In this document: positions 28,758-60,181 of the stretch, one piece after another | Layout: each line of letters begins with the position of its first letter | Position numbering within the stretch: position 1 is the first letter of the stretch | From: Clitopilus passeckerianus | Taxonomy: Eukaryota > Basidiomycota > Agaricomycetes > Agaricales > Entolomataceae | DNA: 64,000 nucleotides | NCBI GenBank assembly: GCA_944990035.1 | Contig: CALYLX010000082.1 | Coordinates: forward strand, 496,001 to 560,000 | Direction: 5' to 3' | Program-made: the position numbers and the translations under genes | Notes under the pieces: generated by a model | Databases searched by the model: none | The model's input: the letters and a program-made list of their open reading frames with translations, nothing else | What the model was told of the DNA's origin: nothing

Positions 28758-30728
28758 ATGGCCACTCAAACAGATATAGGGTGAGTGTTATTCCATGGGA
28801 CGCGTGAATATCAACAATAACGCAAGCCTCATGGTTAGGATGAACTCAACTCTGCCTTGCAAGGTGGCTTTTGCTTCGATGGAGAGGCCTATTGTGTGCA
28901 ACAGCTGGCAATGACGCCCAACATTAGTATTGAAGGCATCGGCCAAATTGCGCTACCCCTCTCCGAAGATCATGCAAAAGCTATCATTCAGGCCGTGGAC
29001 AAGCCTGTGCTCGGACGTGGACGAGGAAAGAAAGGACGAGGAAAGAAAACCGCTGCAAAGAAGAAAGTTGACCATGTCCGGGAGATAGAAGCCAGCCACC
29101 TCTCCTTTGGGGACCACGAATGGACGAACTACCTCAATAAGAGTGTTCTGAAATTTCTTTGGTCCCAGCTTGCTGGGCGCGTATCCTCTACCCTACCAAA
29201 GTGCGAGCTTGACAAACTCTTACTCTACAAACCCAGTTCACAGTAGGTCCCTGTTCCTTTGACACTTTGGCACATAATAACCACATCCTGTGACCATCCA
29301 GACCGCTTCTTCGCGAAAAGTACGTATAAATTTAAAGTCATTCCCATTCGTGACTCTCATTACAATACAGCACAAAAATAGCTGATGGGGCTGTTGCTAC
29401 CTTGGTCGTCCTTCTACCATCTTCTTATAAAGGTGGCCAGATTCATCTCACGCACGGAGGGCAAACGAAAGTCATCGATCAATCGCGGACGTCGGAGCAA
29501 CATTCATCTATCGTGGCTTGGTATAACGAAGTCGAGCACGAGGTCTGACCCATCGACTCGGGATATTGCCTAGCGCTATCCTATAGCCTTATTCATACGG
29601 GTTCCCCGGACACGCTACCTCACCTCCCCACCATGGATGATGATATATCAAGATTCCGGGCTGTACTGCAAAGATGGAAGAGTTCGCCTGCCGAAGTTGA
29701 AACGCGCAAGCCGAACCTCTTCGCCTACCTTTTGAAAGGTCGCTACTTCGGCAACTGTTTCTGGGGAGCTCATGGTCTCACAGGACAAGACCATCATCTT
29801 ATCAACTATATCGGAACTCCAGCTGAGGAGCTCGGATTCATGGTCCTTGTTGGTCTGTTGAATTACGACCCAATGTATTCCGATAATTCCGAAGACGACG
29901 AGGACGAGGATTGCTATTACTTCAGCAAGCGCCGCCGTTACAGCTACCACAGTGGTAGTCGCAACACGAAGTCTAGAGGCGGAAGCGCGAAGAACTTCAG
30001 GGTTGAAGGCCTGGTTGACTTGCAAGGCAACTGTATGATCGGCGATTGCTCGCTGCCCTTGCAGGAAGAAAATATTGTTCCTAAGAACCCTTTCTTGGAA
30101 GAACATGAGCGTGATCTGATAGATGCAAGTCGTCCCTCTTTGGTTTATTCTTACTTTACTGATGACTCTCTAGGGCCCAACACTGGACTCCTGTGAGCTC
30201 CCTTCGTCCAAGGGAAGGCTTCCGTATCTGATTTCCAACAGCCAACCGACAAGCAGTCATTATTCTTATTCCCAACAGCGAAGCCGACGGCGTCTTCTTT
30301 AAAATCAACGGCGTTTCATACGCTCTGGCGAAGCTACAACGATCAAGATCAGACCATCCAATGGAGGAAGAAAAGAAGATGATGAGGATGGTTATTCAGA
30401 GCCTCAAATCGGAGGATGACGTGACGGCGAAGTCGCTTCTTAGACATGCCTTGCGATGGAGCGCATTGGACAGCTGCAAGGAAATAATCCTGAAGGAAGG
30501 CTGTACCATCGCAACTTTTGGCCCAGAGGCACTTGCTTCATCGGTCCGAAGGTTTACATTGGAAGATATACATACCTGGTACATGCATTTGCCCCCCTTC
30601 AATTGGGCCCAAACTAATTCTACTTCGTCCAGCTTTGAGGATCTATTGCAGAGACAGCAGCCGTTAAAGGATCGTCTCGAATTCATCGAGGCTATCGAAG
30701 CACAGAGCAGCGGACAAGACGTAAACAT
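28758..30728 (+). pseudogene. 2OG oxygenase-like paralogue, 5' part, split by the KDZ element
   Basis: Second array member, already decayed before the insertion. The short first exon (28758-28780) is one base out of phase with the next (28839-29242), which has GLPLS-like ALPLSEDHAK and a basic insert (GRGRGKKGRGKK) absent from the paralogues. The 18-nt exon (29302-29319) reads PLLREN where active copies have FLPHQD, so both iron ligands are lost. In HEV.PI an in-frame TGA replaces Lys, and SGYR is SGYC. Downstream exons (AWNRQAVIILIPNSEADGV region, and FEDLLQRQQPLKDRLEFIEA) are still recognisable up to GQDVN at about 30725, where the KDZ transposon begins. The 3' half resumes at 46310. Confidence 0.75.
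30718..30728. repeat. direct repeat flanking the KDZ element, left copy
   Basis: GACGTAAACAT, repeated exactly at 46310-46320. It is the presumed target-site duplication. KDZ/Zisupton elements are usually reported with 8-bp duplications, so up to three of the 11 bases may be shared by chance. Confidence 0.75.
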
Positions 30729-31954
30729 TCCGTACAGTCATTCAACACGTTGAAGTACGTGACAGCGGACGAAAATAAGACGTTAAAGTACGTACCAGCG
30801 GACGTCGGCCGACGTACATAGAGTTACATGTCGGCTCATCGAAGATTTTGGTACACGTCAGCTGAGAGTATTGAGGATGTACGTGTCGGCGGAGGCTTGC
30901 ATGTCTCGGCTGACATGTACACTGACGGTATGAGTACACACATGTCGGCCGACCTTTTATCAGCCCACACATAAAGATAAGGAACAGTATTGACATAGCC
31001 TTATGTGTCGGCTGAAGGTGAATACTTCAAACGGAATCGGCCAACACGTACCAGTATGTACGAAACCATATGGCTTGGCCAAGAGTGCTCGTAGGCATAT
31101 GTGTCTGCCGAAGAGTCAGTGATGCTCCCGCACGTGTCGGCCTTGGCTAACAGCAATCGCTTATATATGTGTCGGCCGATTCTCTTCTCTTTCTCTCTTA
31201 TCAGCCAACACATACCCCTACGCATTGTAGGGGTATGTGTCGGCTGAGATATCAGCATTCAGTCACGTATCGGCCCATTAGCTCCTCATCAATTACTGTC
31301 GGCTGACACATACACATACGGCACTATCAGTTACGTGTCGGCCCACCCGCCCATGCAAGTACGTGTCGGCCCACAACTTCCTTGCTGAGCATCATCAGCC
31401 GACACATACCTGTAAGCTACTCTGAGGTACGTGTCAGCCGACAGCCTTCACTACTTTACGTGTCGGCCGATTTGTTTACCACCAATTGCCCTCGGCCAAC
31501 ACGTAGCTCTATGATACACATGCCCATGTGTCGGCTGGCTTATACATGTACTCACATATCAGCCGATCCCTTTCCTGCTCATTAACCTTGGCCGACACAC
31601 TCGTTCACGTCTGACCCACGTACGTGTCAGCCGACGCCCACCGTTCTTGTATGTGTCGGCCCAGAAGCTTGACTCCCACCCCCACTCGCCCTGCTCTACT
31701 AGGTTTCAGCCATACAACTCGATTCCCACTCCCTCTCGCCCTGTCCTACTACACTTCATTCCTACAGCTTGATTCCCACCCCCTCTCGCCCTGTCCTACT
31801 ACACTTCATCCCTACAGCTCGATTCCCACCCCCACTCGTTCTGTTCTACTAGGTTTCAGCCATACAACTCAATTCCCACCCCCCCCCCCTCGTCCTGTCC
31901 TACTACTTTCAGCCGTACGACTCGATTCCCACCCCCACTCGCCCTGTTCTACTA
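30729..31954. repeat. left terminal inverted repeat of the KDZ element
   Basis: About 1.2 kb, inverted copy of 45118-46309. The outer end reads CACGTTGAAGTACGTGACAG from 30746. The arm is filled with dozens of degenerate motifs around ACGTGTCGGCCGA in both orientations and irregular spacing, then a minisatellite at its inner end. Apparent reading frames in it are mirrored in the other arm and are not considered genes. Confidence 0.9.
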
Positions 31955-31955
31955 G
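31670..31955 (+). repeat. minisatellite in left inverted repeat
   Basis: About six imperfect tandem units of roughly 48-50 bp, each with a TCGATTCCCACCCCCACTCG-like core and then a CCTGTYCTACTA-like segment. The matching right arm has about four units. Confidence 0.85.
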
Positions 31956-32166
31956 GTACTCCTCAAATGCCCAATGCTGACTACCATCATAATGAAATTA
32001 GAGAGGAATTTCGCTATCAAATTACCTGTACATTGATATGCATATGCTGTACAACAATAGAAGAATGAATTCTAAAATTGATATAAGATGTAATATTACA
32101 AATTCTGTGATTGTAGGTCAAAAAGTGTCAACAGAAGAAAAGAGATCAACGGGGTTAAGGAGCAAG

Positions 32167-35100
32167 CTAATGCTTGTATTTGGAAGGAGGCTTGATTCGA
32201 CGAAGCCCTCTGCCCAGTGGAGCCTCTTCCTCCTCCTGGTCCTCTTCCGGCTCCTCTTCAACTCTAGCAATCTTGAACTTCTTTGTCTTCTTCGCCTTTC
32301 CAGGGGAGGCCTGAGGTGAGCTCTTTGGCTTACGCTTCATGCTTGCCCGCTGAGAGGGCTTGTTGCAAGAGCCTGACGATCCACCCCTACTCTTGGTTGT
32401 CCCCTGTTCTCGTGCCTTGCTGATGGCCCCGGCCTCTGACACCTCACCATCTTCCAACTCTCCGTCCATGTCCATAGCATTGTCTTCATTATTCCCACTC
32501 CATACTGGCACCCTCTCCTTCATTTCCGCCTGCAAAAGCTCCATCAGGGTAAGGAGGCCATCCAGAAAGAGAGGAGATGTTATCTCAGAGACTCTCAGAT
32601 ATGCAGGGGCATCTACCGGCCAAGTTTCAGGCTCTGACTCCAGCACTAACCGGACGTTGTAATATAGAATGCCCAGACCCAAAATCAAGCACTCGATGGC
32701 TTGACGGGACTTCAGAGCTGTACCAGACTTGATCAGCTTCTCACAGGTAGTCCACAGGGACTTGAACTCGTCCTCGTCGTGATACTTTGCGGGAAGATAG
32801 AGGCTACTAGTCGGGCACCAGCCCTTCCCGGGAGAAAACTTGGGGGCTGAGGGCTGCCAAACAAAGTCAAAAGTGCTAAACGCAGAGATACTTCACAATT
32901 ACGCACCAGAACAAACACTAAGTCTTTGTAGAGCTCAACCAGAGCAGTGAAGGAGCCATTGGAAACCAGTTGCTGAAGAGTATTCATGGTTGCATGAGTT
33001 GCTTCGGCATCAGAGGGAGTGAATCCATCCTCCTCCTCATCGCCAGACTGAATAAAACCATCATCCTCATTGTCACGCTCATTCCCATCCTCCTCCTTTG
33101 CCTTCTGCTTTCCTTTCCCTTCTGATGCTCCCTTCTGAGGATCCTCTCTGGTGGCTTTCGTCTTCTTCAACACTTGTTTGCCCTTACTCTTCTCGTCGTC
33201 GCTAGAGTGTACCGAAGGTATAGCCTTCTTCGTTCTTTTCCTTTCTTTCTTGGCAGTATCCTTCGTCGCGCTCTGCTTTGAACCCTTTTCTTCCACATCC
33301 TCGGCCCCCTCATCTACCCTTTCATCTTCGCTTGCACTACTTCCAATCTCGACGTACCCTGGGTATTTTCTGTCGGGGACTCGGGGAACAGGAAGACCAA
33401 TTTTTGTACCTGCAGGTCTATGGCCTGTTTTCGCTGCTATGAATTCGATAAGAGGCATTCCTTTTGCTTGGTTGCGTTCCCATTCATCCCAGATTCTTGA
33501 GCATGCCTTTCGCTTGAGGCGAGAGGGCTCTACGTACTGAGCCCACTGCTTCTCATCGCTATCGCGAGGTATTGACTCAGACGTCAAAAACTTGTGATTC
33601 CTGGATGCCAAAAGGCTCCATGGTACAGCAACCACTGAGTTTCCTGTGTATTTTGCTACCCCTCCTTAGCCAAGAAGCTTAAATAAATAGAATCTGGCTT
33701 ACCGTAGGCATCTTGTATCACCATTCTAATAACTCTCTTCTGGTCTGCCAGCTTGTAGCCCTTGATTGGGGGCAGAATAAACTGACCGGCATCGTTCCGA
33801 GGAAGCACAATGGTCTCTCCTTTGCCATCAGGCTTTGCTGTTGCATCTTCGTTGCCACCCTCTACACCTGAAAGCTATATTAGGCTCGATTGCACAGAGA
33901 AGCTGGAAGTTGTACCGAGGTCCACTGTTAGGTACTTCTGATAAGATGTACCCAACTTCTGAACGCCTTTTCGTATTTCCGCATTGAAGTCACCGAACTT
34001 CACCTCCTGTTTACTAGGGTCACTTTCGGAGCTATAGGTACTAGAGCCTCAGTGCTCAAGGGTCCGAAAGATTTGTAGTAGAAGCACGTACACGCCCACT
34101 GTTACCTCATTTCCCTCCACAAATCCCCAGAATATGACTGCTCGAACGCCCATCTTCTTCTCGAATTCGTCTAGCATAGCCGCAAGACGTTTCGGAAAGT
34201 ACTTCCGCCGGAAGCTGGACAGCCATCAGCCACAAAGCTGTGTCAATCTGTAAATGGGCCTTACTCGTCTCTGAACTGCTCAGCGATACCTTCCTTATTC
34301 CACTTCTTGAGCGTCTGAGCAACCAGCGACTGCTTCTCTGGACTCGCCATGTAGACCTCCTTCTTCCATCGGGCGAAATTCTGTTGATATTGGCCAAAGT
34401 TCTTTCTGTCATGCGTGTTTCGGAGCTTGGCGTCAAACTCTGCAATCTCGGTTTTGAACAGCGTATTGATGACATGTCTCTCCGGGATTGAACCAAAATT
34501 AGGGGCTGCGTTGGCGCCTTCATCGTCATCTTCACCCCTTTCTTCATTGTCTTCACCCTCCGGTCCATCCTCTCCCGATCTAGTGTTTGCTCCCTGCCCT
34601 CCCTTGCCCACACCAATGGACTTCTCTTCACCTTCCGGTTCATCTTCTCCCGATCCCCTAACCTCATCAACTAACTTTTGTTTCCCCTCCGTAACTCTGT
34701 CCTCCTTCCTTTCGTCCTCCTCACCTGGCTTCGCCCGTCCCTTGCTAGGCTCGTCCCGCTTCTGATTCTCTGGCAGGATTAAATTCATTGGAGCCCGATT
34801 CTTCTTGTCTTCGCCATTGCTCTCAAACATGTTTGGGTCTACAACTGTAATGGGACCCGTGACTATATTGCGTGGAATATAGATATGTCTATGCAGATGG
34901 CAGTGAAAACGCACATTCTGGCACAGTACCTCCCTGCTTCCTGATCCATTGAGCTTCCCTTGCTCGGTCGTCCTCGTCTTTGATGTCTTGATAGTAGTGA
35001 GTACGGATAGCCTGTTTTTTATTTCAACAAAAAGAAGCTTAGACATGTTGTATGACATACAACGCGCAGATTGTTGGGAAGTTGAATTTTTTTGGTTTCG

Positions 35101-35228
35101 TTGTTTTTCTTGATGATATCCCGGATATTATTCAAGGTCCGCGCACGGGCCTTCATATCCGCTTCTACAAATGTCTGACGGAACTCGTCCAGAGCAGTGC
35201 GAAAAGACGCAATCCAGTTGTTAGACAT
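32167..35228 (-). CDS. KDZ-cargo large charged protein, function unknown
   Basis: Eight exons (about 35064-35228, 34930-35011, 34265-34862, 34092-34214, 33916-34040, 33703-33867, 32907-33655, 32167-32853) join in frame to about 897 aa. No catalytic domain was recognised. Visible parts: an N-terminal helical segment (FRTALDEFRQTFVEADMKARAR); an acidic Ser/Glu/Gly-rich linker; a conserved-looking block with FARWKKEVYMASPEKQ, KYFPKRLAAMLDEFEKKMGV and VIFWGFVEGNEVTVG; a second block with VVAVPWSLLASR; then long alternating acidic and Lys-rich stretches (KKERKRTKKA, KGKQKAKEE) ending in KPPSKYKH. Such proteins recur in mushroom genomes near KDZ-type elements as far as I recall. Charge pattern suggests a nuclear, DNA- or chromatin-associated role, which is inference. 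It is the outermost left gene and is transcribed toward the left inverted repeat. Confidence 0.65.
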
Positions 35229-35495
35229 TGTAGAGATAGATTACACGACAGATGGTGGTTGAGTAGACGATGCACTGGTGTCGGCTGGCCCGTGTCTAAT
35301 CGATGCAGCGAGCTTCGGCTGATTTGTTTTTTCTTATCGATCAACTCAAATCCGGTAAAATGTCGATATATTTGGTACACATAGAGATCATACAGACACA
35401 AACAAAAAACAACGTAAAGTACATGTAGTCATCACGATCAAAATAGAAACATGGGGCAGAGGGGACAACTTTGAACGACGGATGTGCATAGTTAC

Positions 35496-37582
35496 CTAAA
35501 GTTCCATTTCCTCGCTGTACCAAGCGACTCTCTCTTCATCATCGCAAATACACATCCAATCGAATGGCTCGTTAACGTCCCAATTCCATAGTAAGAGAAA
35601 GTCGTCGTTCGTGTAGACCTTGTGCTGCTGGGCGATCCACCCATGCCAAGAACCCTTCAGGCCGCCTGTGTTTGTCGTCACAAAGCTACCTTCATCGGGC
35701 TCGACGACCTGATATGTGTTGGAGCAGTTGCGTTCCATGCACCGGAAGTTGGCCACCTTGCGCATTGACGATCTAGAAGGGCCAGCATGTCGATCGTTCT
35801 TCTTGGCGATAACTTTCTGCTCGCCCTTTGCACGTGCTGCCTTGTCGATTGGCCGGGTTTGCTTGACGCGAGACCAGCCTTGGAGGGCCCCACAGTCTGG
35901 GCATTGGGTTGGGAGGCGGTGACCCCACGGACAAGTATCAGGATCAAAGTAAGAGTACTTGAATGCCCACGTGGTGTCTCCCAAAATGTCGGAAGAGCAT
36001 AGCAGAGGCCGACGAGCAGGTAGATTCTCGGGACCCATGCCCAAGAGGAATACGTTGGCGTGGTTTTCGAGTCGAGCGGAATGGGAGAGGAGGGTGAAGA
36101 TCACGGTCGAGAGTTGTGAATCCTCGGTGATGCAGTAAGTTCCGTACGAAGTTATGAAAGCGTTGGCTGTCGAAGGGTGGAAGTTCAAGGCATCAAAGGC
36201 GACAATCTGGTGAGCTTTCAATCTATAAGAGTACGGTAAGCAGAAAGAAAGGACAAGCTGTTCCAAGAGATCCTTACAATTGCAGTGATGCCATGAGGCG
36301 CGTGAGTGAATCCTCTTTACGAACAGTTGCACCACAGGTGAGCAACCAAATAGTAGCCTCTTCAAAGAGAGGGCCCAGCGAGCCGGCAATCAGGTATTGA
36401 AAAAACTAACAAAACAAGGCTGAGGACGACAATTAACTTCATAGTAATACGTATGAAACTTACTTTATTAGCATAGGTAGCACACTCTTCGTTCTCTCCG
36501 TTGGCCAGTTTAGATCGTCCTATGAAAAGGTCGCCACGATCCTCCTCGGCATGAGTCGTAATGAATATTTCCTTTCGATCCCAGGTAATTCCCATACCGG
36601 CGACTTGATTTGCGAGAGTTCTTGCCGTTTTGGTCCACCTGGCAAAAAGTGTATTGTTCCCCATGTTGAAAGATACCTCGATCAGAGCCAAGTGCTTGGC
36701 TATAAGTCAATCGGTCAATCGCCGCTAGAGTGCTCAACTCAGAGATACTCACGTTTATCGAGGTAATAGGCCTTGAGATGTTCATGGAGAACTCGGGGAG
36801 GCGATCCTTCGATGTTGTGGCCTTCAATGTAGAAATGGACCATAAGAGTTTTTGGCGACTCACTCACGCTCGACGTTTCAAAGCCGCGCGTGAGTTTTGG
36901 ACGATTAGAGAGGACTGGAATTTCCTTGCCGCCCTCGCCGCGACGAAAGAAAGCCTGAAAATGGTTTCATTAGATATAGGATATTGCAATTGAGACGCGT
37001 CTTACCCAATATGGGACCACCACACGGTCCCCTTTCCTTTCAGCCGTTTTGCCTCTAGCAGCACGAGAAGCCCCGATTTCTGTGTAGATATGGCAGCCTG
37101 GGCATCGGAATAAAACATCCGGCTTGGAGATCAGATCTATTGCAGAGGAGGGAACCACAAGGCATCGAGTGCAGACAACCCGCATACAGAAGTCGCAGGC
37201 GTACTGCACCGAGCCGCTGGTACATAATTCACAGTGCTAGTAGTGCGATTAGACCCTAAGCAACTTCATGTTACGCTAGAGTACTCACGTCGTTTTGGGC
37301 ATCCACTGATGCACTCTCATCGTCCATCGAAACATCTTCTTCTGAAGATGTGAGCTCCGGAAGCGGACTAGAGGCCTTCTTCGGGGTACTAGCACGCGAG
37401 GCAAAGCAAGAAGATGATCGCGAGGATTTGGATGCGTCCCCGGCCAGGATTTTGGCTTGGGGAGCGAGGAAAGTTCGAGTTGCAACGCCGCCAGTGGACT
37501 TCCGGTACCTTTCCTTCTCCTTCTTCGTCAATGTTTTCCCGGAGGCGAGCTTAGCCTGAATTGTAGCATCGAGACCACCCAT
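35496..37582 (-). CDS. KDZ-cargo Cys-rich PHD-like zinc protein
   Basis: Six exons (about 37289-37582, 37006-37236, 36753-36954, 36464-36699, 36278-36405, 35496-36231) give about 608 aa. A basic, Ser-rich N-terminus is followed across the first intron by HCELC, then YACDFCMRVVCTRC and RCPGC, a PHD/RING-like spacing of Cys and His. The middle is globular (VHFYIEGHNIEGSPP, HLALIEVSFNMG, VAFDALNFHPSTANAF, LGMGPENLP). A second cluster near the C-terminus (CPWGHRLPTQCPDCGALQGW, then NFRCMERNCSNTYQV) looks like a zinc ribbon. It ends with a Trp-rich stretch (LLWNWDVNEPFDWMC). No enzyme motif was found. The PHD-like part could read histone marks or bind the element's ends; this is inference. It sits head-to-head, across about 1.4 kb, with the SET gene. 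Confidence 0.6.
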
Positions 37583-38973
37583 GTTGGCTGCAAAAAGGGA
37601 GGGATGAACGTTGAATGGCTGGACTGATTGTTATCGGCTGATTCGTACATGAACGTGGTTCACGTGCGGCTGGCGGTCCTACCGGCCCGACCGATTTGGG
37701 AAGTCATCAAAGATACCCCGATGGGGAAGGGAAGTACCGGCAACTTGGAAATTCCACGGTGCCGCCCAAAAGGAGGTTGTCAAGGTGGCAGGTGACTCGG
37801 GGATCACCGGCATAACAAGCACAAATATGCCACATATTTGTTGCGTTCGTCGTCGCTTAACTCCCTTCTGTCTTCTCCACCATCATGCCACATGCCACCA
37901 ATGTGGCATGTGTTGCCTTCCGATCCTTGCCGCGCGACATTGAGAGCCACCAGACTGCAGCTGGTGGCTGTCGAGAGAGCAAAGCAAGGGTTAGGGACTT
38001 TGCTTTTTAACTCGCGGTATCGCCGTTGGGGTTCGGGGGATACATTGGGTCTGGGGGATCTCGCTCGTGCACGGCATGGTTGAAAGACCAGACCAGTGCT
38101 GAGCAAACTACGTGTCTCTGACGCGCTTGTCTGTTTTCAGACATCTGGAATGTGTTGGGGCGCATGGGCTCCCCCCTTCCGCTGTTTTCGTTGCTGGGAG
38201 AGGTGTTTGGTGCCACGTCACCACCTGGAATGTGTTGGGGCGCATGGGCTCCCCCCTTCCACTGGTGTTTGGTGCTCGGAATGTGTTGGGGCGCATAGGC
38301 TCCCCCCTTCCGCTGGTTTTCGCCGCTTGGAGTGGATGTTTGGTGCCACATCACCACTTGGAATGTGTTGGGGCGCATGGGCTCCCCCCTTCCATGTGTT
38401 TTGGGTTCTTGTTCCTTTGCGCCACACCCAACTGGCCTTTCTGTGCAGGGCCTAACTGATTTCCACCTACAGGCATTCCAGTGGGTTGAATTTTGACTTG
38501 GTACGTGGCTGCAATGTAGTTGACTTTGTTACTAATTCATTTTGTTTGATATGCTCAGATTTTACAGGTTATATTCGTTATTGAAATTAGTATGTGCTTC
38601 CAACGTAGGCGGCTTCGTTACTAATATTCTTCATAGGTTTCGGAAGGTATATTTCGATGTATTTCTTACACTTATTTATATTTAAATTTAATGTACCAAC
38701 TTATGCCGGACGTGCTCCGGTTCAGCAGGACGAGAGGCTGGCCACCTCTGGTTCAACCACTGAACTCGGGGCACCTCTGGTAAACTATAATGCCTTGTAT
38801 TATTTATTAATGCTCTGTAGTAATTGTTAGTATACTCATGAATATTATTTTGAGTAAAGAGAGCTTTTGAAACTATCGACATCGTGCTCACGCGCTTTGA
38901 AATGGTCACGTGATCATGCGTAACCAGATGCAACGCAAAGTTGTTGCAGAACCCTGATTACCTCCTTATTGTT
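37583..38973. other. divergent promoter interval of the KDZ element
   Basis: The only sizeable non-coding interval inside the element, between the two oppositely transcribed cargo blocks, so it should carry both promoters. It contains a GC-rich tandem repeat (38149-38396) followed by an AT-rich stretch (about 38500-38900). Confidence 0.5.
38149..38396 (+). repeat. four-copy GC-rich repeat
   Basis: Four copies of a 35-37 bp phrase beginning GGAATGTGTTGGGGCGCATG and continuing GGCTCCCCCCTTCC, starting near 38149, 38229, 38279 and 38361, separated by variable 14-45 bp spacers (two contain GGTGCCACRTCACCAC). Confidence 0.85.
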
Positions 38974-40024
38974 ATGCCTCGGGCGAAGCGACAGTCTAGA
39001 ACTCAGCCATTCTCGGGCTTCCCTGCCCCGTCATATCCCGATGGTCGAGCATGCAACAGATTTGAACAAGAAATCGCCCAACTGAACAAAGAAAGCTTCC
39101 CAGCGAAAGATTTCGCTCGTGTTGATGATTTACTTGTGTGGTCACTGTTTGGGACCAAACGCCGAAATAACAAAGCCTGGATACCTCAGCCGGCCTTCAG
39201 CAACACAGCATCCGCTTCATCGCTATTGACATCTGAGCAGGGAGCATTCATCGCCAGCATGTTCGGTGTTGCTAAATCTAACAAACCCTTGGACGGCGGC
39301 ATTGCAAGAATGGCCCAGGATCTGATTTTACAGTTTCCTGCACAGTTTCAATCAGGGGACATCCCCCTTCTAATGCAGTAAGTTACTCTTAGCTGTTACC
39401 GTAGCAACTTACCTTTCATTTGTTAGTTTACTAAAGAGATATTACTTCTTGTTTGGAGAAAATAGTCCCATTTCTCTTCAAAAAGTGCGATTTGATGGCT
39501 CTGACATCGTCGCAGGGCTGAAAACCACGCAACATATTCCAGCGTCAACGCCTCTGTTAGTCACATGCAGCTCTCTGTCTTCCAACTGTGTTGATCATCG
39601 GCTGGCCATTTCTGCCATCCGGTCTTCACCTGGCCACATGGGAGTGTCGGGCACACGCTTAGTCCTTGGTCCCTTTCGATTCGCAAACCACGACTGTAGC
39701 CCCAATGCACAGGTAGGCCTTGAATGTTTCAAGAAAGCTTTTGCTGAAGGATCTCTGCAGTTCCGTCCCATCTCAGGCACTCACGCTGTCATAATTTGGT
39801 CCCTTGTTGACATCGATCCGGGCCAACCGGTGACCGTTTCGTATGCATCAGACAATAGCTATTTTGGTCCAGGTTCTTGCTTGTGTACCACATGCACTGG
39901 TCGATCAACTGACCTGCCAAGTAACCTGGGTCCGGAACAACCGCGCAAGAAGATCAGGAGAGGCGGCGAAAAGGCCAGAGCACAGAGAGCACGAAAGAAA
40001 CATCGGAATATGGAAGGAAAGTGA
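38974..40024 (+). CDS. SET-domain protein carried by the KDZ element
   Basis: Putative protein-lysine methyltransferase. Two exons (about 38974-39377, 39427-40024) give 333 aa. The start MPRAKRQSRTQ gives a basic N-terminus. In the C-terminal half the SET core is clear: GPFRFANHDCSPNAQ is the NHxCxPN pseudoknot motif, VTVSYASDNSYFG provides the second half with Tyr, and CLCTTC is a short post-SET zinc cluster. The order (I-SET, NHDCSPN, then post-SET CxCxxC) resembles the compact Suv4-20-like SET proteins, but the class is not certain. The tail is strongly basic (RKKIRRGGEKARAQRARKKHR). The stop lies only about 73 bp before the TET/JBP start. Target, histone or otherwise, is unknown. Confidence 0.8.
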
Positions 40025-40097
40025 GATTATCCACAGGATGACGTACGTACATAATAGCACATTTAAATCAAGCAGTCTGTGTTTGATCACAACTGTC

Positions 40098-41369
40098 ATG
40101 AAATCTGAAAGCCTTCTTTCATACGTCAAACGCTTGCTACGTGATGTAGCGTCTCAGTCTCAGTCTAATCAAAACAGAATACTTCAGGAAGCATGGGAGA
40201 GTATGATGAAGGCTGCCTCAGTTTGCACAGGAAGCCTGATAACGGAGCATGAGCGTGAGCGTGCAGCAACGACAATTGCAGCTGCTCTGGCCAACAAAAG
40301 TGCGCTAATTTCAAAGTGATGGACTGTTCAGCTGACTCCAACATATGACTAGAGCATCTTCCGTTTGACGCTTATCGATATGGGAATCAGGTCAAAATCT
40401 GTCCTATTTCCGAGGGGAATACCCATATCCATAGGAATATCGAACAGTTGGCCAAGTTTTTTGATCTCCCCACACTCGGAGCTATTGCTACGCCGTGCAC
40501 TATCATTGACCAGCATGACCACATTCTGGTCTGGTATCTCCCTGGGATAGTGGCGCCTCACAGAGCAGTGTGTACCACTATGCCCCTCTATTTGTTCCGT
40601 CCGACTGATTCCTCCAAAAAGCTTAGTCTGGATGCTGTGACCAGAAACTTGCAGCCCGTCTTCAATCGGAGTAGAGATAATCAGAGCTGGCGCCAGGCAG
40701 GATTCCGTGAAGACACCGACTTAGCTGGTTGCTTGACCATTTCTCCAGGGTACCACATGGCAGCCCAAGAGGTGAGTCCAATTTTACTTGATGAAATGTA
40801 TACGTGTCTAATGTATAATCTGTCGATTCTTCCAGAGGATGAATGATCCTATAGTCCCGTCTGGGACAATGAAAGACAGCCGGGTACAGGCCTGGCTGAA
40901 GGCAATGTGGACTGCTGAAGAGTTCTGGAATGAAGTATTGGGTGTGGTGCATCCAAACCTCTATAATGCCTCTATCCTAGCTGAGAAGGCCCTTCCTGGC
41001 TTGCTCAGCTCGCCGGCAACAAATATCCCCCTCTTCAAAAAATGGAATTCACTATTCAATGGCCTGGACATCATTGTGAATCGTGTGACCCCAGCTCATC
41101 GGGATAGAGGTGGATCACATACGTCATACGATATGTTGGTTAGCCTAGGATATGGCCATGACGCACAACTGATCATCCACGATCTGTCAGCCTCACTGGC
41201 CTACTCTCCAGGAACCATGGTGTTTTTAACGGGTCGGATTTTGGCACACGAAGTACCTAGATGGAAGGGAGGTGATCGAATCTGTCTGGCACATTACATG
41301 AAAGATAGAATTCATCAGTATGCAAATGCACCTACAGCAGTACTGCCTTGTAGTTATGCATACTATTAG
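40098..41369 (+). CDS. TET/JBP-family 2OG dioxygenase (predicted 5mC oxidase)
   Basis: Three exons (about 40098-40299, 40353-40771, 40836-41369) give 384 aa, typical of the compact fungal TET/JBP proteins. The C-terminal double-stranded beta helix is complete. Iron ligands His and Asp are in TPAHRDRGG, the following strand is YDMLVSLGYG, and PGTMVFLTGRILAHEVP gives the distal His. The 2-oxoglutarate-binding Arg is in DRICLAHYMKD. The upstream region (TIIDQHDHILVWYLPGI, and the PGYHMAAQE segment) also follows the fungal family pattern. Members oxidise 5-methylcytosine in DNA to hydroxymethyl and further forms; activity of this copy is inferred from intact residues. It sits between the SET gene and the transposase. 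It has no CXXC DNA-binding domain. Confidence 0.85.
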
Positions 41370-41457
41370 ATGAGCTGACATGTAGTCAACCATATCTATA
41401 TCCTCTTAATGATATATAAGGGTTTTATGAGAGTATCCTTACTGTAATCTACACGCT

Positions 41458-44400
41458 ATGGCACCTCGAGGAGCTTTGTCATTGACCCCTCAGCCCAATC
41501 TTGCAGAGATAAAGATGAAGACAGCCAAAGATGGCCGCAAGCTTTTCAGGAAAGGCAGCCGCTACAGAGATCCACCTCCTGATGATTATGATACTGAGAC
41601 TACTCCAGCACCATCTCGTGCTACATCCAGGAGCCTTTCCCCAGAAAAGGCTCGCTTTAGCCCCAGCCTTGATGGTTTAGTGACCAACCTGGTCTCTACG
41701 GATCTTCAGGACGACAATGATCTCAAATACTCTTCTACTGCAAAAGAAGACGGGCACAGACAAACCAAGGTTAGTACATATCATCATCAATATACCCTGG
41801 GGACCACCTAACGCTATTTCATGTCCAGACTCAGAACAACTTTCTAACTGAATGGTTGGAAGTTCGACCTGAGTATATTAGTGCCATCCTTGAGCTAGAG
41901 CTGCTTCCACATCCTACCGGTCCCTGTCACGGGTGCAAGAAAGCAGTTGATGAGGGCTTCCGCTGTCTTGACTGCTTTGGAGGGTTTCGATGGTGCCAAG
42001 CCTGCGTGCTAAGCACTCACACTAGCCATCCCTTCCACCACGTGCAGAAGTGGAATCTCGAATGCTATGAGAATATCGACCTTATCACCCTGGGATATGT
42101 TCTGGATCTGACTCCTGCCGAACACCAGTGCAGCAATACCAGGCTTATCGGCCTCACCATTGTTCATGTATCCGGGATATTCAGCCATCAAGCTCTGTGC
42201 TGTCACTGCAACAACACTCCTCCCCTACATCTACAGCTTTTGCAACACCAGCTAATTTCAGCAAGCATGGCACGTCCTCAAACGGTGTTTACGTTTGAGG
42301 TGATGACACATTATGCAATGGAGTCACTCAAATGCAAAACAACTAGTCAGGCCTTTTATACAAAGCTACGTCGCCTGACAGACAAATATTTTCCGCAACG
42401 TCTACCGGTACAGTCTACTGCGTTCTATTTTTTGCTGGCGGCTAACCTACTGGAACAGGATCGATATCGCGAACTCATGCGAGTTGGGTGTATGTGGAAT
42501 AACATAGTATCTATAATGGAGTCTGGCGATCCGTTCCGAGACCCAGCACCAGGCGATCTGGCCACATTCTGCGTTGCTTGCCCACAACCCTCAATAAATC
42601 TGCCGCATGACTGGAAGAAGCTTTATCCCAAGCACCCGTGAGTTTTCTTGCTATACCTATCCGTATCCGCTTTGTCAACTCCATTGAGAACAGGTGGCTA
42701 GTCAAGGTGCAATACGTGGTGGACGGCAACTTTTCCGCTCAGCACATGAACCTAAAAAGGGCAGATGAGGATGTTTTCCTGTCCGACGGAAGAGGGTATA
42801 TGGTCACCGACGCACCATATCAGGAACACCTTGCAGTTGCCAAGGAGAATACTCAGGTATGTCAATCCGGGTGTAATATCAATGTATGCAAGCTGAAGGG
42901 CAGTGCAGAAATCAACCTGCACAAATCATCGCGCAGTCAATGGAGCCAATACAAGCAGGGTGAATCTGAGAGTGACTGGTGTCGGTGCAACAGCGTGCGC
43001 ACGGCACGGGTGCTTTGTCCCTCATTCCGTTGTAGACTTTCAAAAAGGCGAAAGGTACATGCTTTCAGAGATGCTTGAACAAAATACTCACTTGGTTACT
43101 CGTCAGGCAGATGAACATTGACTATTCAATTACGCAGGCGCTTGCCCATAACTCGGACGGAATTCGGGATGCATTGATCATCTACGATGTGGCGTGCCAA
43201 TGGAATATCAACTTCAAGAAACGAGTAAAAGACAGCAACTACCTGGAAATTCCCAAAGGAATGAAGATTACTCCTGCAGTGGGAAAGTTTCACCTAAGCG
43301 CGCACATCCTTTCTTGCTTTCCGCGATACAGCCTGAGCTTTGTCGAAGGTGCAGGCCAGGTGGATGGCGAGATTTTGGAAACTCTCTGGGCTCCATTCAA
43401 CAAGATTGCCGATACAGCTAGGCCTAAGTCCAAGGCATTTCGCCAGGAGTCTTACGATATGTTTATGGCGGACTCCAACTTTAAAAAAATGGTTGGCATG
43501 GGTGAGCATTCCATATGAAAGGGACTTCATTAAGCTAACTTGGATGCTTGATGATTAGTTGAAACATTGCTATGGAAGCACAAGAGGGCTGTCAAAGGGT
43601 TAGACGAGTGCAGTGGAAAGGAGGCAACTATAGTGCCTGAGTCAAGTATCAAAAGATGGACTGAGGAGGAAGCAAAGGCCAATATGCTTCGAGGAGAGGC
43701 ACTGGATATATATCAGGTACAGGCTAAACTGGGTATGCTTTATACAACTTTTCCTTTGCTTTTGAACATTGAATGCTAAAGGACACTCATCTAGCTCCTA
43801 CTTTGGCCCAAATACGGAAGGACCTTACTTCCCCCAAATCGACCCAGGTGAAGGAGACAGGGCCCCTTGTAGCATGGCTGGTAGATGGAATTGAGATTGA
43901 AGATGATCAGTAAGGCGCATCTTCTGAGTTGAGTTCAGAATGCTGAACCAAAGAACAGAGAGGATCTTCGGTTTGATTTGAAGATTCTTGGGAAAAGGCC
44001 CACAGCTAAGCAACTGCACGACTTGGAGAAGAAGAGGGCCAAGCTTCTGGACCGCATCGCCGAATTTCATGAGAAAAGCTTACGGTACATGCCAGACCTT
44101 CAGCCGGACGCAGATCTATCACCTCCACCTCAGGATCACATGGCATTTGTAGAGGGGTGGACAGAAATGCTGCAAGACATGGATGCTTTGGAGGAGCCAG
44201 GGGCACCAAATAGTGACGATGAAGGTAGTGATGATGAAGGCAGTTCTGTGGGTGCTGAAGAGGTTGTTTTATGGTTGCCCTCAACAGTATCAAAGGAAAG
44301 GATTCAGGGAGCCGGATGGGACAACCTGGCCACAGCTGAAAGAGAACTTAGGATTGGACAGGCTAACGATCGGCTGGAGGGACTCAGGCAGGCTTTGGGA

Positions 44401-45029
44401 GCCCTGGCATGCTTGATTCAAAACGTAGGTCGCAATGCACAGACCACACGGAACAAAACACGCACCAGAAAGCCGATTGACCTAAGCAAGATCGCCGCCC
44501 AGAAGCATGTCAAATCGTACGAGCGGGCCAGAGCTGCCATGATACATCTAGGCGCATCCGAAGCTCTATTAAAGATGTACCGCCCAATAGACTCCAGAGA
44601 TCTCACTGTCAACAAGGATATAACAGAGGAAAATCGTTATGGGCAGAATAGCTATCAAATGCCTTGGATATGGAAGGGAGGGGAAACTATGAGTCAGGAC
44701 AAGTGGAATATGGAAGGTACGGATATCGATTTTGGAGCACATGCTTTTTGTTGATCTAAAGAAATCCAGTCATCAGAATAGGGTGGCTTCGAGAACGTGC
44801 AAGAGACGCAAGGTGGAATGAGGAGCTGATTAAGGTGAAGCATGAGATGCGCTGGACAGTTAATGGGTTGGCTCATTTCCAAGTGAAATGGAGGAAGTGT
44901 GCTAAAGAGAACCTAGGAGACAAGGGACAAAGCGGTCTGTCAACATATGCTGCCAGGATGAGCGCTATCTATGGAAGGCTGAAGGAAAGTGCTGAAGTGG
45001 CGTTTGCAGGGATCATGACTTCGCAGTAG
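41458..45029 (+). CDS. KDZ-superfamily DDE transposase
   Basis: Nine exons (about 41458-41769, 41829-42637, 42694-42856, 42909-43054, 43107-43501, 43559-43732, 43795-43909, 43939-44716, 44770-45029), roughly 1,050 aa. The N-terminal Cys cluster (CHGCKKAVDEGFRCLDC, WCQAC, then HPFHHVQKW) is the DNA-binding CxC type of fungal KDZ transposases. The RNase H-like core has all three acids: Asp in YVVDGNFSAQHM, Asp in IIYDVACQWN and Glu in GAGQVDGEILETLW. Short Cys/His inserts (GCFVPHSVVDFQKGER region) lie between them. The helical C-terminus (LEKKRAKLLDRI, ELIKVKHEMRWTV) matches the family. The join of exons 7 and 8 is one base out of frame as read (CA|GTAAGG); a lost G before the donor would explain it. 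Otherwise the gene looks functional. Confidence 0.85.
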
Positions 45030-45117
45030 CATAGAGGAGAAAAGTTTATAACGGACAAGACTATAAAATTTTGTTGCTGAAGTAGGTCACCATACATTCA
45101 GGTGTTTCAGTGCTACA

Positions 45118-46309
45118 TAGTAGAACAGGGCAAGAGGGGGGTGGGAATCGAGTTGTATGGCTGAAAGCTAGTAGCACAGGACAAGTGGGGATGGGAAGCG
45201 AGCTGTAGGGATGAAGTGTAGTAGGACAGGGCGAGAGGGAGTGGGAATCGAGTTGTATGGCTGAAACCTAGTAGAGCAGGGCGAGTGGGGTGGGAGTCAA
45301 GCTGTAGGGCCGACGCGTAGATGTGTGTACCTGGAGGTATGTGTGAGCTGAAGGCAATCAAACAGGAAGTCTCTGGGCTGACACATACAAGAACGGTGGG
45401 CGTCGGCTGACACGTACGTGGGTCAGACGTGAACGAGTGTGTCGGCCAAGGTTAATGAGCAGGAAAGGGATCGGCTGATATGTGAGTACATGTATAAGCC
45501 AGCCGACACATGGGCATGTGTATCATAGAGCTACGTGTTGGCCGAGGGCAATTGGTGGTAAACAAATCGGCCGACACGTAAAGTAGTGAAGGCTGTCGGC
45601 TGACACGTACCTCAGAGTAGCTTACAGGTATGTGTCGGCTGATGATGCTCAGCAAGGAAGTTGTGGGCCGACACGTACTTGCATGGGCGGGTGGGCCGAC
45701 ACGTAACTGATAGTGCCGTATGTGTATGTGTCAGCCGACAGTAATTGATGAGGAGCTAATGGGCCGATACGTGACTGAATGCTGATATCTCAGCCGACAC
45801 ATACCCCTACAATGCGTAGGGGTATGTGTTGGCTGATAAGAGAGAAAGAGAAGAGAATCGGCCGACACATATATAAGCGATTGCTGTTAGCCAAGGCCGA
45901 CACGTGCGGGAGCATCACTGACTCTTCGGCAGACACATATGCCTACGAGCACTCTTGGCCAAGCCATATGGTTTCGTACATACTGGTACGTGTTGGCCGA
46001 TTCCGTTTGAAGTATTCACCTTCAGCCGACACATAAGGCTATGTCAATACTGTTCCTTATCTTTATGTGTGGGCTGATAAAAGGTCGGCCGACATGTGTG
46101 TACTCATACCGTCAGTGTACATGTCAGCCGAGACATGCAAGCCTCCGCCGACACGTACATCCTCAATACTCTCAGCTGACGCGTACCAAAATCTTCGATG
46201 AGCCGACACGTAACTCTATGTACGTCGGCCGACGTCCGCTGGTATGTACTTCAACGTCTTATTTTCGTCCGCTGTCACGTACTTCAACGTGAGTTTGACT
46301 GAAGGGTCT
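45118..46309. repeat. right terminal inverted repeat of the KDZ element
   Basis: Inverted copy of 30729-31954, near-identical over most of its length. The inner part carries about four minisatellite units (45118-45310) instead of six, plus about 70 bp near 45311-45395 lacking in the left arm. The outer end CTTCAACGTG near 46283-46292 mirrors the left CACGTTGAAG. Confidence 0.9.
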
Positions 46310-46320
46310 GACGTAAACAT
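46310..46320. repeat. direct repeat flanking the KDZ element, right copy
   Basis: GACGTAAACAT, identical to 30718-30728. It encodes the same Asp-Val-Asn in the same frame of the interrupted gene on both sides. Confidence 0.75.
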
Positions 46321-47505
46321 GTCTACTTGGTGTAACAAGTGGTCTCAGCAGGCCCTCAGTACCTTTACCAAGCCTAAGGCGGCAGACATTCCGATGCTAA
46401 TCAAAGTCGCTAAACAGCGAGGTACACCGTTCCTTAAAGAGTAAGATTCGCAATCCACTCTGAGACGTATCAGAGCCGCTTACCCGTATGCAGGATACTA
46501 CCCCAAGTAGCTTCAAATAACGACTCGTTTTCCTCGTTCATCACTGCCTTCACCGAATCTCTTCACGAGAACCGGGACCTTATTCCGACTTCCTCCTCTG
46601 ACGACACCCCTCCTTTGGAATGGCTGGCATTCATCAACGAATCCTTAACTATTGCTGCCAACCAATGCGATAACCTCAGGCTTGAAAGTCTGCGCTTCCA
46701 TTCGCTCGGACAACTTTTTGACTATCAGGTTAGGAAGTACGCCAAGGTCTTCGAATTGGGCATCGTGACTGGTCAACTTGGACCCTGTTCAAAACTATCG
46801 GAGCGTTTGCTCGCCACGCCCGGCCAAATTGAGGCAAAATTCGATGCAATATATATTCCATTTGTCTCTCAATTGGGTGAAGCCTGCCGAAAAACCAAAT
46901 TTGATATCCTCACCCCTCCCCTTCGTAACCTCTTGCGGCAACTGGTGTCATCATACCTCCATAACATCCTTGCGTCATCGTCGCAACAATACATATCAAG
47001 AATCAGGAAAATTGGATGCGGATGCAACGAATGTAAAGAGCTGGACGCCTTCATAATCGACGCCAAATCGACCCAACACTCATTCAAAGAAAATTCTCAG
47101 ACTCGAGATCATTTGGAGGATCGCCTTCAGCCAGCTGCCGACCTCCTTCGCTTTGGGACCATCAAGGCTGGGAGCCCATATACCCTCCAAATCACGAAGC
47201 GTCCTGATATTGTTTCCGCTCAACAGTGGACAATGCGCTTGGCGAGCGCTAAAGCATTCCTTGCGAGTATCGGGGACGACGCAACCATTGCTCGACTGAT
47301 GGGTGATCGCTACCCAGACGTGCAGCTGGCTCTCAGGGGGGCTCAACGCTTCTCTGAAACATCGACTGCAACTGTGGCCAAGACCGCAATACCTGTGACC
47401 CAGGCTAGGAGAACGGGCCTGAGTGTAGCTGCTACAAACGCGACCCAACCGTCGAGCGCCAGAACGAAGAGAAAGAGAACCATCCCTTCCATTCCCCCCA
47501 AGTAA
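46310..47505 (+). pseudogene. 2OG oxygenase-like paralogue, 3' part
   Basis: The C-terminal half of the gene whose 5' part is at 28758-30728. It resumes with DVNMSTWCNKWSQQA in the same frame. Two exons are seen (about 46310-46440, 46494-47505), with the splice junction KE|ILPQ at the same place as in the paralogues. The helical domain keeps SSFITAFTESLHEN, LTPPLRNLLRQLVSSYLHNIL and the conserved GCGCNECKELDAFI. It ends with a basic tail (RTKRKRTIPSIPPK). This half has no stops, in contrast to the damaged catalytic half. Confidence 0.8.
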
Positions 47506-48542
47506 TTGATTTGACGAAGTAATGCCCTACGCCCTATAACTCTTCTATTTACTCTCGATTTATCGATAATCTATCTAACTTCGCACGTATGAATCAAATC
47601 ACTTAGGCTTGGTGATCAGAAAACCCATAGCTCTAATATTGCGGTAGAGTATGGTACAAACAAGGTGCTCGCTAATGGCGAAAATCGAAAAGTACACTAA
47701 GATGATAATATTACCCGCCCAATAACTGAATTAACGTGTTCATGTTCCCCATTGACTTCGGGTGCAGGAACAACTTGAATTGCGGAAGGCACGGATAGCA
47801 GGTGGAGTAGGATTCGTATGGTGGCGTATGTAATCGGAACCTCCAGCAAGACAGGAGGCGATTTGGAATGAACCCTCCAGCATCATGAGTAATGTCTTGA
47901 AAATTGAAATAAAGTGATTGCAGTTGAATCAGGCTGTGCAGTGGAGAGCATATCCTGCTGTTCAAAGCTCCACAGCCTCTGCTGTTTGAGCTATTTGAAC
48001 AAACGTACAGTAGGAGGGATAAGCGATTACCAGTCAACTTGAACAAACCATCGGTGGTTTGTCAGAGCGTGGGCGAAGTACTTTAGGGCAGGCCTCGATC
48101 ATCTGCAACTCCGAGTCTCCGGAGGGACAGGTGAAACCAATGTCAACGATGGCCGCATTCAAATTGAAACCGCTCCTCCTTTGCTTAACTGCGAGTATCC
48201 CGCAGTCTCTGTACTGGTTGACGTGGGCAGTATGCTAGACCCGAAGGCACCTCCCTCGGAAATTCAGAAGGCCATGAAACCTGACAGAAAATTCGAGCAA
48301 TTGCCAAATATTGTATCTGCTCAAGATCGCGCAATCTGCGAGCTACTAGGGCGATTTCTTCACCTTTTTGCCTACCTTTGGCTGTGGTACCACTCGTGGC
48401 ATCAGACTCGGACGAGGGTCGGGAGGGTCACGCCTGAGTGACTCAGGCCATGATTCTGTGACGAACGCGTTCCGACCGCACCATCGGGCCACGACCTATC
48501 GCCTGAGTGTCGCGTCTTTGAAGCTCGGGTTCTACGGTCTCA
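47506..48542. other. intergenic between oxygenase paralogues
   Basis: About 1 kb with the 3' flank of the split gene and the promoter of the next copy. No gene or repeat recognised. Confidence 0.4.
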
Positions 48543-51500
48543 ATGACCACGCATTACAAGAAATCTGCCAAGAAACCAATTGCAGCGAAAGATATCAGGG
48601 TGAGCTCGGGATCCCGGGTTGCTGGACCCTTTATTGAATTTGACAAACAATTATAGGATGAGCTCGATGCTGCTCTACAAGGAGACTTCCAATTCAACGG
48701 AAGCTTCTATTGTGCTCAAAAGCTGTCAACGGCCCCAAATGCCTGCTTAAATATTGAGGGCGCAGGCCCAGTTGGTCTTCCTCTCAGCGAACGTGATGCT
48801 AAAGCCATTATTCAAGTAGCAAAGCAAGCACCGTTCGGGCACGGAACAGAAACTCTGGTCGATAAAAATGTTTGGGATACTTGGGAAATTGAACCTAGCC
48901 AACTTAATTTCGATAACCCAGAATGGGTCAAATTCGTTGAGACGACGGTTGTAAACACCGTTTGGGCGGGCCTTGGCGTAACGAAGCCCACTTCAACGCC
49001 CAAATGCGAACTCTACAAGCTGCTTGTATACGAACCAGGCTCACAGTACGTGTTTGGTCTACTCAACGCAAATTCGATATTAATGACACCTTCCAATAGT
49101 TTCTTGCCTCATCAAGAGTACGCTCACTTTTGGTAACACTGATTCCTGTTACTCATTACCTGCCAGTACGGAAAAGGCGGCTGGCATGTTTGCTACCATT
49201 GTGATCCTTCTTCCGTCACCATACGAAGGCGGCCAAGTACATGTCACCCATGCGTCAAAGACGGATGTCATTGACCTCTCGCAGAACTCACATCTGTCAA
49301 CGTCTGTTCTTGCCTGGTATACGGACATCACCCACGAAGTGAAGCCCATAACGTCAGGCTACCGCCTTGCCCTATCATACAACCTCATTCATACCTCCCA
49401 TCCCGACACGATACCCCATCTCCCAAGGATGGACGACGCGATCTCGAAGGTCCGAACAGTCTTAGAAAAATGGCGGCAGTCCCCGTTCAAGGACGAGAAG
49501 CGGAAATTGAATCTCCTTGCCTACCTCCTGAAGCACCAGTACAACAATCATAACCTGCGAGTGGGGGCGAGGGTTCTGAAGGGGCAAGACGCTCATCTTG
49601 TCGCTCATGTCCGGGCGGCCGCTGAGGGTGTGGGTTACATGGTCCTCCTTGGAGCTCTGGAGTATCATCTGCAAGGCTCTGGAGACGACGAAGGGTATGG
49701 TGATACTTGGGGGAAGAGGGGCCGCTACAATGACTACGAGGAAGAACACAATGATGACGATGTTGGGTTCCTGTCATGACCCACCTTTTAGGGGGTTCTT
49801 ACATCGATCCCCATCGCTCTAGAACCCCCGCATTTTGCCTAGAACCATGTATCCATGTTCCATGGACTCCCTGGTTACCCCCTAGCGATGCACAGTCATG
49901 CACAGTTCTTGGTTGTCCCCCAACTGTCCCCCCATGACTCTACCTGACTCACTTACCTCCCTGACTCTTACTGACTCATATGGCCTCTAGTAGAGTATTC
50001 TACAGTATATATACCATCTCTAGACATCGTATTTCCTTACCCTTGATATACTAGTAAACCCACCTGTCTTGTTCTTGTCTCTTTTCTCTCCTCTCGCTTT
50101 TCTGCACAGCCACAGCATCAGAGGTCTTCTACCTTCGCTTTGGCACACTGTATACTATCTAGAACACCCAATAGACCCCCGGATCTGGTGTCAGACCATT
50201 TCCCTTTGTATTCCACCGCTTCCCAGACCCCCTAGAAGGTTCTACAACCCCTAAACCCCCCCAAAACTCCGGTCACTTCCTGCATACCTGCCTAGTGGGA
50301 TCTCTCAGAAGGTCTTGTCTATCCAGGAATAGTCGGGTCCTTACAGTTCCTGGAGATCTACGAGAGGGAGCTCAAGGTTGAGAATGTTGTCGACTTGGAT
50401 GGTCACGATATGATTGGTGGCCATGCCTTGGAGCTTGGCGAAGACAGTCTGGTGCCCAAGGATCCGTTTGAAGATGCGGATCCCGACGAACGACAGTATG
50501 AAGGCTACATGGGGAACGTAAGTAATTGTCATTGCTGCATTCTACCACAGCTTGCTCATAAACCTCCAGGGTGCTGGTGAATTGGATCACTGTACGCAAT
50601 TGCCACCCCGTACTGCATAATATATTACTGACTCATTTCTCTTAGGGTACAGGCGAACGGTGCTCATCTTGGTCCATAAAGATGATGCCGACGGGATATT
50701 CCTCGACGTTGGGGGAATATCATACGCTATGGCCAAGATACGAGAAACGGACCCAGACCAACCCACCGAGGACAACAAGAAGTTGATGGAATTCATAATC
50801 AAGGGGCTGAAGCCTTCAGACGCCCAGATAGCAAGAGAGGCCATGTCTTACGCTGTTCGTTGGAGGTCACTCGATACCTGGAATGCAATCATCCAGAAGG
50901 AAGGCTTGTTGATTACAAGCCTCACTCCTGATCAGCTGGTCACTGCGCTTGACGCCTTTACGTTCGAAGAGATTCGGTCAAGGTTTGTATATTATTCAAC
51001 TTCACATCTGGTCTCCCGAAATAACACCTCGTTGCTAGCTTCGAACGCCTTCTCCGGAGGCCTCAACCCCTGAAAGACAGGATTCAGCTCATTGATGCCA
51101 TACATGCGAAGGCGGACAGCGAAGATGCAGAAACGGTCGCTGGATGGTGCGACACCTGGTCCCTCCAAGCCTCGCGTGCTTTCACAACTCCGAGGGAGGA
51201 TGACATCCCATCCCTGATCGGCGTCGCAAAAAGGCGGGGCCTGCCATTTTTGGCTACAGAGTGCGTTCTTTGGTGTTGACATGATCCATGATACTGACAC
51301 GTTAAATTCTCAGGATACTGCCTCAGTTATCAAGGAATGCAAATATGTTTGGCTTCATGATCGCCTTCATCAAGTCGCTGCAGCAGAACCGTGAAGCCAT
51401 AGCAAGCTCTGCTGACTCGGCCTCACCACCCGTCAAATGGGTTACATTCATGAACCAATGCTTGGAGATCATTTCCAATCAATGCGAGGCTATTCAAATA

Positions 51501-60150: not shown

Positions 60151-60181
60151 TTACCCTCTCGCTAGCGTTGAAGTCACCTGA

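Follow-up and report, generated by a model that had tools for sequence, protein, structure and literature searches.

Within a window of 64,000 nucleotides from Clitopilus passeckerianus (the whole stretch analysed, C82:496001–560000 on contig CALYLX010000082.1) lies a complete, 15,585-bp DNA transposon of KDZ type (30726–46310), which encloses five genes between one pair of long terminal inverted repeats (TIRs). These genes encode a KDZ transposase, a TET/JBP dioxygenase, a SET protein, a protein with a PHD-like cysteine finger (gene A) and a large charged protein (gene B). Its recent mobility is evident from two copies with defined ends and a separate target site duplication (TSD) apiece. The reading preferred here, held with a probability of roughly 0.6 and drawn from sequence comparisons, is that of a Kyakuja-like KDZ transposon carrying a kit that would reset its own epigenetic state around transposition.

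The ends of the element were established by alignment with a second genomic copy and by exact 7-bp TSDs. A search of the assembly (64.8 Mb in 160 contigs) placed this second copy on contig C125 (C125:1714786–1731984), where 98.9% identity extends over 15.2 kb, all five genes included, between flanks that differ from those in the window. TIR matches genome-wide belong to these two copies only. The window copy, 5'-CATTCCG...GGGTCTG-3', is bordered on both sides by the same letters, ACGTAAA (30719–30725 and 46311–46317), while the C125 copy is bordered by CTATATG, again an exact 7 bp. Both copies thus possess 5'-CA...TG-3' termini with a 7-bp TSD, the combination given for Kyakuja elements (Kojima, 2025). 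An earlier note on this DNA had described a bounded element with ends at 30729–46309; the boundedness holds, but the ends are corrected to 30726–46310 by the second copy. The former ends implied an 11-bp TSD, GACGTAAACAT, which is ruled out by the 7-bp duplication of the second copy, and the bases within it that match beyond the 7-bp TSD are chance. That the cluster arose through misassembly, or is unrelated genes that happen to be neighbours, is refuted by two insertions that share the five genes at this identity over 15.2 kb yet have different flanks and different exact TSDs, and the likelihood of such an account is negligible. In addition, the joined window flanks form an open, in-frame host gene which aligns with an intact neighbouring paralogue (25345–28124, plus strand) at 26% identity over 721 columns, and therefore the element split a host gene, its 5' half now at 29633–30725 and its 3' half at 46318–47505, both on the plus strand. 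The assembly yielded no allele in which the insertion site is empty.

The TIRs are 99% complementary over 925 nt (30746–31670 and 45367–46291), a match that gapped BLAST lengthens to ca. 1.16–1.18 kb at 94–95%. By sequence comparison the left TIR spans 30726–31670 (plus strand), with an outer ca. 20 nt unlike the right end, and the right TIR spans 45367–46310 (minus strand). The motif YGTGTCRGC, both strands counted, is present in 15 copies in the left TIR and 16 in the right, while the interior (31971–45100) and 48 kb of flanks contain none; this array would likely provide a binding platform for the transposase. Just inside each TIR, a repeat search located a 50-bp tandem array, with 5.6 copies on the left (31674–31957) and 3.9 on the right (45118–45310). 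In the window copy and the C125 copy the interior has opposite orientations with respect to the unique outer tips, which suggests recombination between the TIRs. Nested in the left TIR of the C125 copy is an insertion of 1,604 bp (C125:1715159–1716762), with inverted ends identical over at least 80 nt, TA on either side and no open frame longer than 80 amino acids; it resembles a nonautonomous Tc1/mariner-like element.

The five genes are arranged as a plus-strand tandem of SET (320 amino acids), TET (384 amino acids) and KDZ transposase with an N-terminal CxC2 cysteine cluster (982 amino acids), together with a minus-strand pair, gene A (627 amino acids) and gene B (752 amino acids). The models are predictions of our own splice-site script, made without RNA support and hand-corrected in three places. 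Correction discarded two false introns within SET and one within the exon of the PHD-like finger, and split a SET–TET fusion, which needs an intron skipping the SET stop as well as introns within the SET domain. The earlier note had counted five genes in one bounded KDZ transposon and this count stands, the CxC2 cluster belonging to the transposase and the PHD-like finger to the separate gene A. In the second copy, too, all five lie within the repeats, so the case by which the earlier note would be refuted, with the transposase alone enclosed, is not seen there. SET, gene A and gene B are found in this genome solely inside the two copies (14 of 14 matches for gene A, 12 of 12 for gene B). A 133-bp tandem repeat (38147–38401; 1.9 copies, 91% matches) lies in the interval from which gene A and SET diverge, where a promoter region is expected.

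The transposase (41458–44995, plus strand, 11 exons) is identified by Pfam on the spliced model (KDZ, E 7e-33; CxC2, E 3e-18) and by alignment with homologues. KDZ is the sole transposase family that Pfam recognises in the element, with no Harbinger or MuDR transposase. A public protein collection yielded 64 KDZ homologues, all from fungi that we take to be Agaricomycetes, the best being from Hydnomerulius pinastri at 43%. Among those homologues with a residue at the position concerned, the acidic residues are retained almost throughout (D363 in 60 of 61, D475 in 61 of 61, E536 in 53 of 55). Seven of the 64, all from Suillus, are single gene models that contain both TET and KDZ; in each of them TET stands directly upstream of KDZ and in the same orientation, as in the element, and thus the TET–KDZ pair is an established unit. 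The link between the two, given as known in the earlier note, is accordingly confirmed as the ordinary part of this transposon, and TET-bearing KDZ elements were reportedly already known in fungi from the work of Iyer et al. in 2014. SET, gene A and gene B gave no match at E≤0.01 in the 64 homologue proteins, and the three look like additions to the TET–KDZ unit, or else like parts lost elsewhere. In a tree of the homologues, whose subtypes are unnamed, the window transposase was placed without strong support.

Within the genome itself, 30 KDZ matches represent at least ca. 14 loci by our own grouping. The KDZ cores at two loci, on contigs C43 and C106, are 48–49% identical to that of the element; five of seven other compared loci reach 28–33%, and the remaining two gave no match. 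At C43 and C106, TET is also linked with KDZ, but there the two genes stand tail to tail and no long inverted repeats are present. The 10 kb taken at each contained no match to SET, gene A or gene B at E≤1e-3.

The TET/JBP gene (40098–41369, plus strand, three exons) matches Pfam Tet_JBP at E 4e-11 on the spliced model, and residues 113–374 align with the CcTet structure 8jkk at E 1e-20. In this alignment CcTet positions 326, 328, 331 and 337 are occupied by H295, D297, G300 and D306, respectively. In CcTet, His326 and Asp328 are iron ligands, while Gly331 and Asp337 are residues for the handling of N6-methyladenine (6mA) and 5-methylcytosine (5mC) (main text of Kojima, 2025; PMC12730594). The complete iron ligands announced in the earlier note are present as an HxD...H triad, including the downstream His, and the Gly331 and Asp337 equivalents are kept too. 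A match to SMC6 was dismissed as weak or chance. Five TET matches were found in the genome, those at C157, C43 and C106 in addition to the two element copies. Counted from HxD, the TETs of C43, C106 and C157 have Asp at position 337 and Ser at 331; that of C106 falls under the Pfam cut-off and contains a stop. The C157 TET (C157:124001–132000) has an open frame of 310 amino acids on a contig where no KDZ match is listed, and reads as a solo or stranded copy; the models near it are presumably gag and integrase/chromodomain pieces.

The SET gene (38974–40024, plus strand) has two exons (38974–39377 and 39466–40024) and is recognised by Pfam SET at E 1.7e-6, whereas NCBIfam provided no family for the protein. 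The NHDCSPN motif reported in the earlier note was found, within FANHDCSPN at 39680–39706, as was a post-SET CLCTTC, and the two motifs fit the SUV4-20 family. All ten PDB sequence matches at E≤1 are KMT5B/C (SUV4-20), the best at E 0.0012. The protein shares with SUV4-20, KMT5B/C and Set9/Kmt5 the NHDCxPN core, the post-SET cysteine cluster and, in the KMT5B alignment, an FG-containing stretch; it differs in being transposon-encoded and in that its best match covers residues 198–294 only, with an insertion after NHDCSPN. The protein is probably a SUV4-20/Set9-type histone H4 lysine 20 (H4K20) methyltransferase. Set9 is placed in a Suv4-20 group that occurs across most fungal lineages (as stated in PMC9692433), and Crb2 of S. 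pombe is able to bind H4K20me2 (as stated in PMC6240467).

SET has 35 matches in the genome, of which two are the element copies; by the listed coordinates, no listed KDZ match comes within 100 kb of any of the other 33, and comparison of 28 of them with the element SET gave a best E of 0.12 and no close relative. The DNA pattern F-x-NHDC-x-x-N occurs twice genome-wide, in the two element copies, although an intron-split or variant host Set9 would escape it. In the protein collection, 1,309 candidates for the SET query gave none at E≤0.001, and 7,991 candidates sharing most words with the uncorrected, 597-residue model of gene A likewise gave none. The collection holds Agaricomycete proteins, so close relatives of SET and gene A are at least rare there; in a collection of this size, distant relatives would fall short of E 0.001.

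Gene A (35496–37707, minus strand, seven exons) carries an eight-cysteine finger in the exon 37236–37006, with additional cysteine pairs, CPDC and CMERNC, near the C-terminus. The zinc ligands of a PHD finger follow a C4-H-C3 order. Here, the pattern C-x2-C-x8-C-x2-C-x4-C-x2-C-x19-C-x2-C has PHD-type spacing but places Cys at the PHD His position, and the finger gave no Pfam PHD match at E≤10. Its five weak PDB matches (E 0.22–4.5) are all PHD or ADD proteins (SP140, CHD4, ATRX). The Cys-rich, PHD-like protein of the earlier note is thereby upheld as to spacing and not as to the His ligand or a Pfam assignment, and the label is limited to PHD-like only. A CK_II_beta match to the finger (Pfam E 0.0045, below cut-off) was set aside as weak or chance, and the idea that the central part of the protein is caspase-like was dropped, Pfam returning nothing and PDB one chance match. 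Gene B (32167–34830, minus strand, seven exons) matched no Pfam family over cut-off, and a CDC27 match to it is regarded as weak or chance.

In relation to known systems, the element has in common with the TET-bearing Kyakuja elements of Agaricomycetes its KDZ transposase, its TET of AG type (HxD, Asp337, Gly331), the 7-bp TSD and the 5'-CA..TG-3' termini (main text of Kojima, 2025; PMC12730594). Two Laccaria bicolor Kyakuja families are described there without TIRs, in contrast to the 925-nt TIRs found here; the statement covers two families, and the element is called Kyakuja-like instead of being filed as a certain Kyakuja member. SET, PHD-like and charged genes, present here, are given no mention for Kyakuja in main-text sections of the same work (PMC12730594). 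SET-encoding DNA transposons exist as well in Phytophthora, namely HarbingerS and MuDR, according to its introduction; those, however, have Harbinger and MuDR transposases and oomycete hosts, with no TET mentioned (PMC12730594). A literature search that covered main-text sections of Kojima (2025) turned up no account of a SET gene carried by a KDZ element. SET, PHD-like and charged genes together with long TIRs in a TET-bearing KDZ element are apparently new, in agreement with the view of the earlier note that a unit of TET, SET and PHD-like parts is less described.

Under the proposed resetting of the epigenetic state, the transposase would act at the TIRs, on the YGTGTCRGC array. TET would oxidise 5mC on the element, and possibly 6mA as CcTet does, so that CpG methylation could not lock the element off; oxidation of methylated bases by TET-bearing transposons has been proposed, and is not experimentally validated (main text of Kojima, 2025; PMC12730594). 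The SET protein, probably of the H4K20 type, would mark nucleosomes along the transposon or where it leaves breaks; the PHD-like protein may assist in binding to chromatin. An anti-silencing role of the genes is a plausible hypothesis. Simple opening of the chromatin is not an obvious prediction, because a SUV4-20-type mark is tied to both silencing and break signalling in other fungi. SET therefore need not open chromatin, and may maintain a state that can be reversed or direct how breaks are repaired. The earlier note had proposed that the element sets its marks to escape silencing or to open its ends, and while its bounded five-gene element and motifs hold, that outcome does not readily follow for a SUV4-20/Set9-like SET, and the proposal is upheld in part only.

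Sequence composition holds a probable trace of past methylation in part of the element. The observed/expected CpG ratio is 0.615 across SET–TET–KDZ and 0.71 in the interior, in comparison with 0.87–0.90 in the flanks and 1.05–1.08 in the TIRs; the corresponding TpG/CpA ratio is 1.25 in SET–TET–KDZ, 1.26 in the TIRs and 1.05–1.10 in the flanks. By coding sequence, the CpG ratio is 0.56 for TET, 0.58 for KDZ, 0.70 for B, 0.78 for SET and 0.94 for A, with 0.81–1.01 for 17 flank gene models. Shuffles of synonymous codons, a control which covered the five element genes and left out the flank genes, gave CpG z-scores of -3.8 for TET, -3.6 for B, -3.4 for KDZ, -2.2 for SET and -0.1 for A. The depletion of the core may be read as past CpG methylation, with none in gene A. 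Aligned over 15.2 kb, the two copies differ by 91 substitutions. Transitions account for 75, CpG/TpG/CpA sites for 38, and a cluster at 45000–45367, beside the right tandem repeats, for 35.

In favour of a kit that resets epigenetic state count the boundaries and TSDs of both copies, the host gene read in frame across the joined flanks, the acidic residues of the transposase, the TET residues, the SET motifs and PDB matches, the CpG depletion of SET–TET–KDZ, the TET–KDZ order in Suillus, the confinement of SET, A and B to the two copies and the TIR motif arrays. Several observations weigh against it. Gene A (0.94) is not CpG-depleted, so no methylation footprint is common to all five genes; nor are the TIRs (1.05–1.08) depleted. 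Coding changes between the copies, summed over the five models with gene A still uncorrected, are few (10 synonymous and 23 in residue-changing codons) and do not show purifying selection. In the C125 copy the reading frame is shifted where 1 nt is missing from exon 1 of SET and 2 nt from one TET exon, through either decay or assembly error; a 2-nt gap also falls in a gene B model exon, and gene A contains 6 inserted nt that leave its frame intact. The PDB matches behind the SUV4-20 assignment have E values of 0.001–0.013, and AlphaFold, given the sequence of the SET exon by itself, returned an unusable model (predicted local distance difference test score, pLDDT, 41.5). Furthermore, the H4K20 mark set by Kmt5 acts repressively in Zymoseptoria, where Kmt5 and H4K20me3 are needed for silencing in facultative heterochromatin (as reported in PMC10553808).

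Some of these points would fit a different account, in which SET, the PHD-like gene and the charged gene are passive passengers caught by chance between the TIRs, with only TET–KDZ functional. The host-like CpG content of gene A and the mild depletion of SET agree with it, as do the SET frameshift in the second copy, the limited sample of two copies with 91 substitutions, the want of the three genes in the stretches taken at C43 and C106, and the failure of the protein collection to yield a SET or gene A relative at E≤0.001. Set against this, no donor for SET, A or B was found elsewhere in the genome, so this is no recent capture from it, although capture from another species may have occurred; in the window copy the multi-exon frames are open and the catalytic motifs retained; and SET, TET and KDZ stand in tandem on one strand. 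Passenger status for the three genes is, on balance, unlikely, though it is the strongest competitor of the resetting kit.

The Zymoseptoria result lends itself to a further account, by which SET acts as a restraint: an H4K20 methyltransferase would hold the element in reversible facultative heterochromatin and limit its copy number, while TET would prevent permanent methylation and mutation. The resemblance of SET to KMT5B/C and the confinement of TIR matches to two copies would suit such a role, but the H4K20 specificity is deduced from weak sequence matches and a low copy number has many other possible causes. Restraint is consequently considered improbable, more so than passenger status. 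A more elaborate form of the resetting kit would join an H4K20 writer, a PHD-like reader and a TET eraser into one unit, in which H4K20 methylation at the cut would recruit repair of the Crb2/53BP1 type and TET would clear 5mC from the TIRs. It is a long shot, less probable still than restraint; if true, a DNA transposon would combine a DNA-mark eraser with a histone-mark writer and control the repair of its own breaks.

The role of TET in TET-bearing transposons is unproven, and a bounded element with candidates for both DNA oxidation and histone methylation makes the question testable, the second copy and the TET-only KDZ loci of the same genome offering natural comparisons. Should SET methylate H4K20, a mark employed by fungi in silencing and in the signalling of breaks would be encoded by a mobile element.

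Outside the transposon, the interrupted gene belongs to a tandem family of large host genes (25345–28124, 29633–30725 and 46318–53172). The family comprises the intact paralogue, the gene that was split and at least one more model judged similar by eye, at 50410–53172. Pfam gave no match over cut-off for three tested open reading frames of this family. Further along, minus-strand models at 55292–63849 read like pieces of a Ty3/Gypsy polyprotein, presumably reverse transcriptase, RNase H and a protease-like part.

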